From a virus, in the IMG/VR virus record IMGVR_UViG_3300034107_000416, positions 1 to 38,533 of that record: DNA of 38,533 nucleotides, one strand, 5' to 3'. A program made the translations under genes and the position numbers. Within the stretch, counting starts at the first letter, position 1; each line of letters starts with the position of its first letter. The notes below the pieces were generated by a model, which made no database searches, was not told where the DNA came from, and saw only the letters and a list, made by a program, of their open reading frames with translations. Positions 19,044-28,444 of this stretch are shown here, piece after piece.

Positions 19044-19854
19044 TTAAGCTGTTTTTATAAATTTGAAGTAATTGTTTTTTGTCAGTCGAATTAATAAAGT
19101 TGATCAGCATTTCCTTTTTGCTGGCTTCAACTGCCTTTTTGAAGATTGGATTTTCTCGCCATTCTGGAATTGACATCGCAGAATAATCGGGTAATGCATC
19201 CAGATAATCCTTGAATTGATATGCTTGCTTTCTTTTCGCATGATCTCGCAGGACTTCCATCGGCATCCCTTCAATGAATTTTTTTAACTGTTTGTATAGG
19301 ATATTTAATTTTTCTTCATTAGATGGCTTGTAAGCACCGATATTTTCCAATTTGGCATAATATACTGCAATGCCAGTTTCATGCTTCTGTGGATCGTTTA
19401 TGAAGTCGCTGAAGGCATTCAGCATGATAGAATGCTTTTCGGTTTCTGAAACTTCTTGAATTTCTCTAATTGGTAGGTATGGCATTGTTGATTTTTCTGA
19501 ATGATTTAATCTGAATTCTTTGTACCAACAGAAAATATTTGCTGCCGATAGGACTGTCAATTGATTTTCTAGCTTGATTTCTCCATAAGATGCCATGCTG
19601 ATCGATAGGCATATGTCATCGACAAATGCACCTGGATATGTTGCCAGTATTTTTTTGATGACTTCTTGTGCTGTAATTGCAATTACTTGTCCAGATGTCG
19701 ATACACCCATGACCATTGCAGCTTTGAAAATTGAATCTGCAATCTTGCTTTCAACTGAATTTCTATTCTGCGAATAATCGTAATTCAGTCGACCTGGTTT
19801 TTCTAGTGCTGGATTTCGTTCCAGACTTGAATTAATAATTTGTAATTGGTTCAT
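19030..19854 (-). CDS. Putative replication-associated protein
   Basis: A 274-residue protein with the central stretch ATYPGAFVDDICLSISMASYGEIKLENQ and SAANIFCWYKEFRLN (about 93-155), then a basic helical C-terminus ending in DKK. The arrangement recalls a family of Bacteroidota phage and plasmid proteins (DUF6633-like) that follow a replication initiator; I could not confirm it. The 3' end of the initiator-like gene overlaps its start by 23 bases, so they are translated together. A helicase loader or initiator-partner role is a guess. Confidence 0.5.
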   Translation of the reverse strand: MNQLQIINSSLERNPALEKPGRLNYDYSQNRNSVESKIADSIFKAAMVMGVSTSGQVIAITAQEVIKKILATYPGAFVDDICLSISMASYGEIKLENQLTVLSAANIFCWYKEFRLNHSEKSTMPYLPIREIQEVSETEKHSIMLNAFSDFINDPQKHETGIAVYYAKLENIGAYKPSNEEKLNILYKQLKKFIEGMPMEVLRDHAKRKQAYQFKDYLDALPDYSAMSIPEWRENPIFKKAVEASKKEMLINFINSTDKKQLLQIYKNSLNDKK

Positions 19855-20602
19855 TTTTTTGAGAGTTAATTAAGTTCATTGCGATATCGTATTCAATTTT
19901 TATTGAATCAATTTTATCTGGTTTTTGATTTTTAAAACCATTTCCAGTTTTTAAGGCAAAAATTCCTTTGTATCCAGATGCGATTGATGTGTCAATAATT
20001 TTTTCAGCGATTTCAAATTGTCCGTTAGATAATTCAATTAATTTTTTTACAAAAGTATTAAGGGTATCCTGGCTCTTGTACTTTTCATTGTGCTGGCTTT
20101 TCTTGTAATCCAACCACCGATGAATTAACGGTTCAAAAAAACCAAAATCATCAAAATTTAATTTTGACTGAATTATAGTCTTATTGTTCTGTATTATTTC
20201 ATTGTTCTTATTAGTTCTAATACATTCTATTATGGTATCAACTGCTTTATCAGTTGCTTCATCAACTGCTTTGTCAGTTGCTTTGTCAAGTGCTTTGTCA
20301 ACTGCTTTGTCAGAATTTGATAAAGCAACTATTTTACTTTGATGTTGATTGCTTGAATTTTTAACAATAATCACAAATCCAAATTCCACCAAATCATCAA
20401 GAATCTTCTTATAAGTGTTATAAGAAGCAATGCCAAGTGCTTCCATAGTATAAGTTGTAGGAAGACCAAATTCGGATTTTTGGCCTATCCTATTCCACTT
20501 ATCAACCAAGTAAAAATAAAATTCAGAATGGTTTGCTTTTATTTTTTGAGAATTTTCAAATTTAAAATCAAACCAATTTCTGGTTAATTCGTACCCATTC
20601 AT
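19832..20602 (-). CDS. Replication-initiator-like winged-helix protein
   Basis: A 256-residue protein. Residues 1-95 (NGYELTRNWFDFKFENSQKI, LPTTYTMEALGIASYNTYKK, ILDDLVEFGFVIIVKNS) form a winged-helix domain of the type seen in Bacteroidota phage and prophage replication proteins. Residues 98-122 are six tandem DKAx units (DKAVDKALDKATDKAVDEAT...). The C-terminal half is helical and DnaD-like (NEKYKSQDTLNTFVKKLIEL, FEIAEKIIDTSIASGYKGIF). It probably binds the origin and recruits the host helicase, since no polymerase gene is present. The repeat may itself lie in the origin. Confidence 0.75.
   Translation of the reverse strand: MNGYELTRNWFDFKFENSQKIKANHSEFYFYLVDKWNRIGQKSEFGLPTTYTMEALGIASYNTYKKILDDLVEFGFVIIVKNSSNQHQSKIVALSNSDKAVDKALDKATDKAVDEATDKAVDTIIECIRTNKNNEIIQNNKTIIQSKLNFDDFGFFEPLIHRWLDYKKSQHNEKYKSQDTLNTFVKKLIELSNGQFEIAEKIIDTSIASGYKGIFALKTGNGFKNQKPDKIDSIKIEYDIAMNLINSQKNEPITNY
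20237..20311 (-). repeat. Tandem DKAx-coding repeats
   Basis: Six in-frame 12-base units (encoding DKAV, DKAL, DKAT, DKAV, DEAT, DKAV) sit inside the replication-initiator-like gene. Repeats inside initiator genes are known to act as binding iterons in some phages, so this is a possible origin segment. It is not a CRISPR array. Confidence 0.75.
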
Positions 20603-20608
20603 AACCGG

Positions 20609-20833
20609 TTACGATTTGGTTACTTTTAGTAACTGATCTGTTTCTACTTTATCAATCATTCCATTCAATTCATTTCTAAATTCAATAGCTGTTTTATAGT
20701 CAAGTTTAATATTTGTGCATATGTTAGAATCAAATTGATCATATATATGAATAAATATTTCATTTGATTTTGGTATCAATAAAGCAACCATTTCCATTTC
20801 TGGATACCCAAGAAAAACTTTTTTAACTGCCAT
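20609..20833 (-). CDS. Hypothetical protein downstream of leader or attenuator
   Basis: A 74-residue beta-alpha protein (VKKVFLGYPEMEMVALLIPKSNEIFIHIYD; DYKTAIEFRNELNGMIDKV). It lies directly after a transcription terminator with only about 11 bases between T-run and ATG, so its expression, and that of the initiator-like gene six bases downstream, depends on readthrough or regulated antitermination. Family not recognised. Confidence 0.65.
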   Translation of the reverse strand: MAVKKVFLGYPEMEMVALLIPKSNEIFIHIYDQFDSNICTNIKLDYKTAIEFRNELNGMIDKVETDQLLKVTKS

Positions 20834-20844
20834 AATTTTAAAAT

Positions 20845-20913
20845 AAAAAAACCTTATTCTACTTTCATTGGTGATCCCAGCTAGCAGCTGCCAATTACTT
20901 ATAGAATAAGGTT
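20845..20913 (-). terminator. Intrinsic terminator with 12-bp stem
   Basis: On the minus strand AACCTTATTCTA (20913-20902) pairs perfectly with TAGAATAAGGTT (20861-20850), followed by T7 (20851-20845). The loop is 40 bases and can form an inner ATTGG/CCAAT stem. It lies just before the ATG at 20833, so it can act as an attenuator. Confidence 0.85.
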
Positions 20914-20975
20914 CTTAATGTCTTCGTTTTGCTAGATGTGTTGCTGCATGGGATCAATCATGTTTTTCAGCTACG
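20845..20975 (-). ncRNA. Candidate small RNA or regulatory leader with pseudoknot potential
   Basis: A noncoding interval of about 137 bases carries, in minus-strand order, a promoter, TGATCCCA (20956-20949), the first terminator arm (20913-20902), TGGGATCA (20879-20872) and the second terminator arm with T-run. The first and third segments are complementary, as are the second and fourth, so the pairs interleave: either a pseudoknot or two competing structures. GCAGC and GCTGC extend the first pair. The only frame inside is nine codons (MIDPMQQHI, 20961-20932), which could be an attenuation leader. A stand-alone RNA of about 125 bases or an attenuator for the downstream replication genes are both possible; no known riboswitch was recognised. 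Confidence 0.5.
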
Positions 20976-21207
20976 GATGCAAATATAAATCAATTTTTAT
21001 ATGGCTGCAAATCGTTTTGAAAATTTTTAGCTGTTTTTCGTACTGTTCAAGAAAATGAAGATTTGACTTTATGTAGTCGATTTCTTCACGAATGATATGC
21101 TTGGCATCGGCATATCTTGGATGATCATATTTCTTCTGCGCAAAATTCAATTCCCGATTCAACCGGTACTTTGTGCGTCTTATATCGTATCCAATTGATT
21201 CTGCCAT
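20971..21207 (-). CDS. Hypothetical helical protein
   Basis: A 78-residue basic helical protein (MAESIGYDIRRTKYRLNREL; IIREEIDYIKSNLHFLEQYE). The ATG at 21207 overlaps the stop of the upstream gene (TAATG), so I prefer it to an ATG six codons earlier. The -33 and -7 elements of the next promoter lie in its last codons. Family not recognised. Confidence 0.65.
   Translation of the reverse strand: MAESIGYDIRRTKYRLNRELNFAQKKYDHPRYADAKHIIREEIDYIKSNLHFLEQYEKQLKIFKTICSHIKIDLYLHP
20980..21011 (-). promoter_or_regulatory. Promoter of the structured leader
   Basis: On the minus strand TTTG (21011-21008), exactly 20 bases, then TATATTTG (20987-20980), an exact Bacteroidota consensus. It overlaps the last codons of the upstream gene and initiates transcription just before the structured leader. 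Confidence 0.7.
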
Positions 21208-23211: not shown

Positions 23212-23669
23212 CCAGTACATCAATTATCAATCTAGGGCCAACCAATGGCCCTGAAATTGAATCATTCGCAGTTCAGACAATCAAACAGATTGAAGATGGC
23301 GAATATTCAGCACTTGAATTATTTATAAAGTGCAAGGCATTCATGAAGTCAATTGACTTGATTATTCAAGGCATTGAAGAATCTGCATTAAACGAAGCAG
23401 AACGTGAAGGAAAATCGTTTTCCAAGTATAATGCATCAGTTTCCATTCGAGAACTTGGAACAAAATGGTATTATGATAAGACCAATGATCCGACCATTGC
23501 AGAGATATTAGAACAAAAAGCTGAAATCAGCGAAAAGGAAAAGGATCGCCAGAAATTTCTGAAGGCATTGAAGACTGCAATTGTAGTGATGAATGAAGAA
23601 ACCGGTGAACTTATCCAAGTTTTTCCGCCACGCAAAGAATCAAAGACTGGCATCGTAATTACATTCTGA
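23208..23669 (+). CDS. Recombination-associated hypothetical protein
   Basis: A 153-residue, mostly helical protein. The central segment (AFMKSIDLIIQGIEESALNE; ILEQKAEISEKEKDRQKFLK) and the C-terminus (EETGELIQVFPPRKESKTGI) match a conserved but unnamed type that usually follows the annealing protein gene in Bacteroidota phages. It may modulate or partner recombination enzymes; no function is established. It overlaps the erf gene by four bases. Confidence 0.68.
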   Translation: MTSTSIINLGPTNGPEIESFAVQTIKQIEDGEYSALELFIKCKAFMKSIDLIIQGIEESALNEAEREGKSFSKYNASVSIRELGTKWYYDKTNDPTIAEILEQKAEISEKEKDRQKFLKALKTAIVVMNEETGELIQVFPPRKESKTGIVITF

Positions 23670-23671
23670 TC

Positions 23672-24034
23672 ATGGAATTTATCAGAATCGAAAACAGACT
23701 TGCGATATTGTTAGATGACAATGATATCGATATGATGAATAAGTTCAGAAGTCCAGTTGAACAGCTGGTGCTTTCTGAACCAAAGGAAAATCCAATGAAA
23801 GGATTCAAGACTAAGACCATTGATTTTTATAAAAAATTGGTTCAAACATTTGGCTATAATACATCAATTGAAAGACGCAATTCAAAATTGCTGGATCTTG
23901 AATATGAATTTTACATTAGGGATATGAGTCAATATCTACTACAATTTGAAAGCAGAAACTTGATTGAAATCAAAAGGAAGAACTTCGAGAAATCTAGCAG
24001 ATATGAATCATTTAAGATATTGAATTGGGATTAG
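23672..24034 (+). CDS. Hypothetical protein
   Basis: A 120-residue basic protein with helical segments (MEFIRIENRLAILLDDNDID; KTIDFYKKLVQTFGYNTSIE). It lies two bases after the previous stop, and a bidirectional terminator follows, so it is the last gene of the recombination unit. Family not recognised. Confidence 0.65.
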   Translation: MEFIRIENRLAILLDDNDIDMMNKFRSPVEQLVLSEPKENPMKGFKTKTIDFYKKLVQTFGYNTSIERRNSKLLDLEYEFYIRDMSQYLLQFESRNLIEIKRKNFEKSSRYESFKILNWD

Positions 24035-27929: not shown

Positions 27930-28444
27930 TGTCCTAAGTATTTTATTGCATTTTTTACAATTGATGCAAGTGCGATTTGTTCTTCTTGTTTTGACAAATC
28001 GAATGTAATTCCAAATCGTTTTTCCAAGCTGTTTGCAATGTCAAATTGCTCCTTTGATGTAAATGTAACACCCCAGCTGTTAGCACCACTCGGAACTGGT
28101 CGCCATGTTTTAAACATATCGCCAGAAAAAGTGAAGTCAATATAATTGGTTTGCAGACCTAATTTCTGGCGCAAAACAATGTACGGATCTTCATTCGATA
28201 CCTTCTTCAATCGCTTCTTGCTGCCAAATGACTGTGCCTTACTGATGGCTGATTTGATGACTCGCTGGCCATACTTGCCAATCTGACCACCATCGGATTT
28301 CTGGCCATTCTGCTGCACTCTGTTCAAGATAGCCGGTGCAGTTATGATAGCAGCTTCACGCACCACCTTCGATGCGGTTGTTGCTTCCTTGAAGTTGCGC
28401 AACTGTTGCTTTATGAAATCCCTTGTGTTCTTGTAGTCTGGCAT
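27926..28444 (-). CDS. HK97 gp10-like or neck protein
   Basis: A 172-residue basic protein. Its helical N-terminal half (KNTRDFIKQQLRNFKEATTA; NRVQQNGQKSDGGQIGKYGQ) and the SFSGDMFKTWRPVPS-like later region (TFSGDMFKTW) fit the virion morphogenesis or neck proteins of siphophages (gp10-like/tail-completion class). It is the first gene of the minus-strand head unit, facing away from the plus-strand promoter at 28461. The gap of about 70 bases before 28515 holds that promoter. Confidence 0.6.
   Translation of the reverse strand: MPDYKNTRDFIKQQLRNFKEATTASKVVREAAIITAPAILNRVQQNGQKSDGGQIGKYGQRVIKSAISKAQSFGSKKRLKKVSNEDPYIVLRQKLGLQTNYIDFTFSGDMFKTWRPVPSGANSWGVTFTSKEQFDIANSLEKRFGITFDLSKQEEQIALASIVKNAIKYLGQ

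Follow-up and report, generated by a model that had tools for sequence, protein, structure and literature searches.

What do the roughly 135 noncoding bases do that extend from a promoter towards a replication initiation gene in a 38.5-kb IMG/VR virus record? The question concerns the minus strand of the stretch analysed here at its full length of 38,533 nucleotides (the window), where an element at approximately 20979-20844 combines a promoter, a 5' hairpin, a large-loop terminator hairpin and an 8-bp loop-loop (kissing) helix. The Bacteroidota promoter TTTG-N20-TATATTTG proposed in an earlier note on this DNA was present in the letters at 21011-20980 (minus), with the -33 box TTTG at 21008-21011 and the -7 box TATATTTG at 20980-20987 separated by 20 bases. 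The -7 box was common to nearly all members of the family described below. The -33 TTTG is the softer half of the promoter; TTG or TTTG was found 17-25 nt upstream in 16 of 30 elements, compared with a background of 20%. Transcription would start a few bases past TATATTTG, at about 20975.

Folding to minimum free energy placed the 5' hairpin P0 at 20943-20971 (minus; GCTG/CAGC at 20971-20968/20946-20943), where an inner CATG/CATG pairing is optional and the loop presents the 5' kissing strand TGATCCCA at 20949-20956. A single-stranded linker (20914-20942), delimited from the sequence and by comparison with the relatives L002, L093 and L194, leads to the terminator stem P1, and a AAGACATTA-type motif recurrent in many relatives stands immediately 5' of that stem. 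P1 is a perfect 12-bp stem, its 5' arm being AACCTTATTCTA (20902-20913). Enclosed within it are an internal loop with AGTA (20896-20899) opposite GAAA (20863-20866), and the helix P2 formed by ATTGG (20891-20895) and CCAAT (20871-20867). The same AGTA/GAAA was seen in L002, L035 and L080, and it may resemble a loop E (bulged-G) motif. Inside the terminator loop, the 3' kissing strand TGGGATCA (20872-20879) lies directly 5' of the P2 3' strand, an adjacency found in most members. The P1 3' arm TAGAATAAGGTT (20861-20850) and a T-run to 20844 complete the intrinsic terminator (20844-20861, minus), which is missed by a general terminator scan because its loop is too long.

The predicted RNA folded at -33.5 kcal/mol, compared with -23.6 (sd 3.0) for shuffled sequences (z -3.3), exceeding all 200 shuffles, and TGATCCCA and TGGGATCA are exact complements. 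The energy of the leader-loop helix was matched by 33 of 5000 shuffles; evidence for this helix is modest in the window by itself and decisive across relatives. The earlier claim of a structured noncoding RNA that has an interleaved pairing and closes with a terminator was borne out by the fold, the exact complements and the retention of pairing in relatives. Likewise, the claimed 12-bp terminator stem just before an ATG was found (arms 20913-20902/20861-20850, ATG at 20833). Beyond the earlier note, the 5' kissing strand was seen to sit in a hairpin loop of its own, so that the contact is one of loop with loop.

The ATG, 13 nt past the stem, opens a 74-aa ORF (20609-20833, minus) with a weak match to phrog_23129; neither Pfam nor PADLOC gave a match, and no relatives were found with the ORF as search query. 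It is followed by the gene of an O-like replication initiation protein of 256 aa (19832-20602, minus; phrog_678, E 6.5e-8), in agreement with the earlier placement of the RNA upstream of a replication-initiator-like gene. Within this gene, about six 12-bp tandem repeats were observed at 20238-20312 (TCAACTGCTTTG on the plus strand), encoding DKAxDKA repeats that are kept in relatives. The repeats are iteron-like, as in the lambda O gene, and the origin may therefore lie within the O-like gene.

A DNA similarity search of phage records and an exact-pattern scan were of no use, owing to the turnover of the RNA sequence, and the search had to be anchored in a protein. Searching with the initiator protein gave 7 loci, and an alignment-based search gave 80. 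The nearest relative, L002, has an initiator 89% identical to that of the window and the same layout, with kissing helix GTGAAG/CTTCAC, P2 TCTGG/CCAGA and internal loop AGTA/GAAA. In L004 the kissing helix GCTCTCAC/GTGAGAGC was found upstream of a ParB-like gene, and in Polaribacter phage Danklef_1 GGTGGAA/TTCCACC was found ahead of an O-like gene. Further elements were sought by DNA-pattern scans without gene anchoring. A covariance model, R1, built without the kissing helix, returned 32 elements from 70 sources. A second, broader model, R2, with the window outside its training set, recovered the window element at 20841-20987 (minus) with 38.2 bits and an E-value of 0.012, model E-values being rough. 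In all, more than 50 distinct elements were collected, most of them from metagenomic contigs, revealing a multi-copy, widespread family that extends past replication initiators, of which the earlier note had said nothing. The window element shares the family layout of a TAnnTTTG promoter and a large-loop terminator stem within about 150 nt, and has a kissing helix of at least 6 bp with its 3' strand adjoining P2.

For a test blind to the pairing, elements were selected by the TAnnTTTG promoter and terminator stem only, within 700 nt upstream of 67 O-like loci. Such an element was present at 25 of the 67 loci; at the other 42 none was detectable, the stricter criteria missing some and some contigs being cut. 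In every one of the 25, the leader-loop helix reached -10 kcal/mol or better. Its mean energy was -14.53 kcal/mol; permuting leaders and loops gave -7.97 (sd 0.51), and none of 20,000 permutations went beyond -10.3 kcal/mol. Some of the sequences entered in the permutation test are related to one another, which inflates its significance; complete replacement of the helix in many families is independent of that inflation. Among R1 matches that were full-length and outside training, the kissing helix was found in 22 of 22, even at E near 1, with a mean of -15.2 versus -7.96 when permuted.

In a MAFFT alignment of 10 sequences (A4), the kissing helix was paired throughout (100%); both partners had changed in 5 of its 8 pairs and in all four P2 pairs, and the P1 stem covaried as well. 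For the whole structure, 93% of cells pair, compared with 69% after shuffling and at most 54% when slid, and covariation was 0.70 versus 0.24 shuffled. In type A members, the equivalent of the P0 hairpin showed double changes in 4 of 5 pairs. Compensatory changes in both pairings, named earlier as the support to look for, were thus found by alignment and by the leader-loop test alike. Linker length and helix length, for which simple geometry predicts a relation, showed no link (Spearman 0.12, p 0.52).

Across relatives the kissing sequence was replaced and the pairing kept. Between the window and L002, identity is 89% upstream, 92% in the promoter region, 55% in the leader, 89% past the terminator and 92% in the initiator, and the kissing helix is wholly replaced. 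Close relatives, at 86-95% identity between initiators, have different helices in almost every case. In other close pairs the upstream DNA differs as well, being equally divergent in many, so that selection for diversity and mosaic exchange are inseparable here. The turnover may report a specificity function. A loop-loop helix whose sequence changes fully while the fold stays constant is an unusually clean case of RNA covariation.

A co-directional ATG ORF follows 5-33 nt past the stem in all 30 elements measured (median 17.5), and the element precedes initiators of unrelated families as well as non-initiator genes. Genes found after it encode DnaD-like helicase loaders (L093, L197, L194), DUF6291 or related replication proteins (L154, L200, L322), a BT4734/PriCT primase (L157), primosomal or initiation proteins (L317, L314), DNA helicases (L154:5186, L302), HNH endonucleases (L021, L218 and, twice, L317), a methyltransferase/ParB-like protein (L079) and a metal-dependent hydrolase (Freya); others belong to a thymidylate synthase operon (L232), an antirepressor operon (Riemerella phage CRP19) and a PAPS reductase operon (L038), and one is uncharacterised (L259). 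Among cultured phages, the element stands at the replication cassette of Freya, Danklef, phi18:3, elemoE, lillamy, tooticki and Tenacibaculum JQ. Of 199 genomes of one bacterial family, a single one gave a match; the contig concerned carries a gene for a replication initiation protein too and is probably phage. No convincing match was obtained in seven genomes that have O-like loci.

Several phages carry two copies and the contigs L086 and L317 three, with kissing sequences differing within a contig. The three elements of L317 (1293-1405, 3699-3807, 7120-7217) have three different kissing helices, two of them directly preceding HNH endonuclease genes, and those of L086 (2885, 5787, 6436) likewise each have their own. 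A near-identical element (GTCGTCG/CGACGAC) stands at HNH endonuclease genes of two phages (L218:11590-11678 and L317:7120-7217), as if leader and endonuclease had moved together. A second subtype (L087:782-912, L065:9460-9591, L208:3662-3793, L090:371-502, L091:5111-5242) carries a separate hairpin 5' of the kissing strand and an additional one following P2, the latter being GGTTGCCAAACC in L090, L091 and L208, which gives a three-way junction in the terminator. The CRP19 element (L220:28055-28213, minus) is an extended form whose kissing helix measures 12-15 bp, and it lies before a small ORF and the antirepressor gene; an annotated opposite-strand ORF (28066-28320) that overlaps it may be spurious. 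In Cellulophaga phage phi18:3 (L223), the annotated hypothetical gene gp058 (23539-23640, plus) overlaps with a kissing element predicted at 23584-23685 and is perhaps not a genuine gene. A promoter-led element of different shape, ATATTTGCAGAGAGGGTTGAGCC...CCCCTCTCCTTTTTTT, directly precedes the O-like gene of L004 (2900-2985, plus), and GAGAGG-type stems were seen ahead of the O-like genes of L015, L023 and L054; together these are maybe a second leader type.

The reading we favour, with somewhat more confidence than doubt, is that the element acts in cis as a transcription-attenuating leader RNA whose structure is of a new type, with one copy per operon. Based on the observed promoter motif, hairpins, kissing helix, terminator arms, gene order and family-wide covariation, the following course may be proposed. 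Host RNA polymerase would start at the TATATTTG promoter, and the first 30 nt or so of RNA would form P0. As the terminator hairpin emerges (P1, the AGUA/GAA internal loop and P2), its loop bases would pair with the P0 loop, and polymerase would halt in vivo at the U-run, about 10-25 nt ahead of the first codon. The 74-aa ORF and the O-like initiator would then be reached only by readthrough or upstream transcription, because the gap between stem and ATG is too small for another promoter. The leader would thereby keep the replication operon low or delayed and release a compact RNA of about 130 nt, until relieved by an outside factor or by plain leakiness. That the spacing to the ATG stays constant, whatever gene follows, is more readily expected of a leader than of a free sRNA gene, but compact phage operons often have short gaps before an ATG as well.

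The released RNA of about 130 nt might instead be the functional product, a trans-acting phage sRNA stabilised by the loop-loop contact that binds protein or RNA, with the downstream genes living on leaky readthrough. Its own promoter and terminator, its compact fold, the conserved non-helical motifs (ACATTATA in the type A P0 loop; AGTA/GAAA or TGAA/GGAT in the internal loop) and the presence of up to three copies per contig would fit such a product. It is nevertheless unlikely, given the placement of all 30 elements just before the ATG of many unrelated genes and little or no excess complementarity to the remaining phage genome: the longest complement was 11-15 nt, close to that of shuffled RNAs (null means 11.1-12.3), and lillamy alone exceeded its null (15 versus a maximum of 14). 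More doubtful still is copy-number or immunity control by intermolecular kissing, in which accumulated terminated RNA would pair with a nascent leader of the same type and set termination, the kissing sequence serving as specificity (incompatibility) determinant. Replacement of the helix between flanks of 89-92% identity, its near-constant difference among close relatives and the differing copies in one genome are in line with this. However, intramolecular pairing should win at equal sequence, antisense promoters were no more frequent than expected (2 of 36 elements versus 2.5), and the turnover may be explained by mosaic exchange.

Control by a ligand or a leader peptide through two alternative folds, as in a riboswitch or a trp-like attenuator, is very improbable. 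The order of promoter, structured leader, terminator and gene fits an attenuator, but pairing of the leader with the P1 5' arm (z +1.2) and 3' arm (z -0.6) was at chance level, revealing no evolved, conserved antiterminator. The nine-codon frame suggested earlier as a leader peptide exists (MIDPMQQHI) but is unconserved, internal ATG frames of at least five codons occurring in 4 of 30 elements at unrelated positions, and the suggestion was dropped. The earlier note had offered a pseudoknot or a switch between two structures. Of these, the pseudoknot stood; the switch found no support, because the kissing helix is built from loop bases, so that the arms stay free, and leader-arm pairing was no better than permuted. 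A proposed GCAGC/GCTGC extension of the pairing is in the letters, but it competes with the 5' hairpin and is absent from the nearest relative, and was discounted. The interleaved strands meet loop to loop, which the terminator can accommodate; kissing helix and terminator coexist, as no conserved antiterminator helix or leader peptide was found. For the favoured leader this means that a built-in ON state is missing, so that the outside factor or leakiness must be assumed. An ordinary promoter and intrinsic terminator with accidental complementarity can be given practically no weight: the shuffles that equal the helix energy in the window would allow it, but the uniform presence of the helix in both sets of relatives, and complete pairing despite sequence turnover, refute it by covariation.

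Since copies in one genome share their shape and not their kissing sequence, a common shape-reading factor of host or phage would be likelier than antisense RNAs for each operon. A wider picture, which we put forward as a long shot, is a phage-wide RNA regulon in which each DNA-metabolism operon is gated by a kissing-loop terminator leader, one factor reads the shape, and the fast-diversifying kissing sequence is an identity tag. If so, the tag could, for instance, restrict replication control to the phage's own kind when relatives co-infect. How Bacteroidota phages time their genes seems to be sparsely documented; the recurrence of the element in cultured phages, at operons for replication, helicases, endonucleases and nucleotide metabolism, would give a directly testable regulatory code, and the element offers a sequence-level handle for locating replication operons in uncultured phages.

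In Rfam 15, no match was obtained at the gathering threshold for the window or for 12 relatives, including to the C4 antisense RNA (RF01695), and permissive scans gave chance-level matches only. Our search of the literature on Bacteroidota phage transcriptomes found no paper with such an element, and no RNA regulator of Bacteroidota phages was found in Rfam or the literature searched. The P4 CI RNA with the P4 leader and the C4 antisense RNAs of P1 and P7 are leader-encoded small RNAs with mutually complementary segments, which act between molecules and control premature termination ahead of replication or antirepressor genes; to our knowledge, they have no fixed hairpin-loop-to-terminator-loop architecture. 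Complementary segments in a leader upstream of such genes are shared with our element, for which an Rfam match is absent. In plasmid rep leaders (the IncB/ColIb repZ pseudoknot, pT181/pIP501 attenuation), a loop-to-distant-strand pseudoknot or a terminator stands before the initiator gene; these leaders need an antisense RNA, and their pseudoknot drives translation, not a terminator, whereas the kissing element is without an antisense promoter. Type III toxin-antitoxin RNAs (ToxI) consist of a pseudoknot-forming RNA followed by a terminator and gene; this identity was rejected, as the element has no tandem repeats and the adjacent, downstream genes gave no toxin or PADLOC match.

A candidate phage RNA with predicted terminated and readthrough forms recalls IsrK of the Gifsy-1 prophage, a Salmonella phage, whose promoter is described as giving a short terminated form and a readthrough form into phage regulatory genes, IsrK acting in trans to activate translation of the latter (PMC4825925). 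The abstract of that report mentions no loop-terminator kissing helix (PMC4825925), and Rfam indicated no relationship of IsrK to the window element or its relatives. The STAXI motif is outlined as a pseudoknot RNA near genes for DNA-binding or DNA-manipulating proteins, usually in 2-3 tandem repeats (PMC2864571), whereas the kissing element is a single copy with promoter and terminator in Bacteroidota phages. None of IsrK, P4 CI/C4, plasmid rep leaders and STAXI is known to share the architecture. We conclude that the kissing-loop terminator RNA is probably an undescribed kind of genetic brake and, as predicted from sequence, a new structural class of phage terminator leader.
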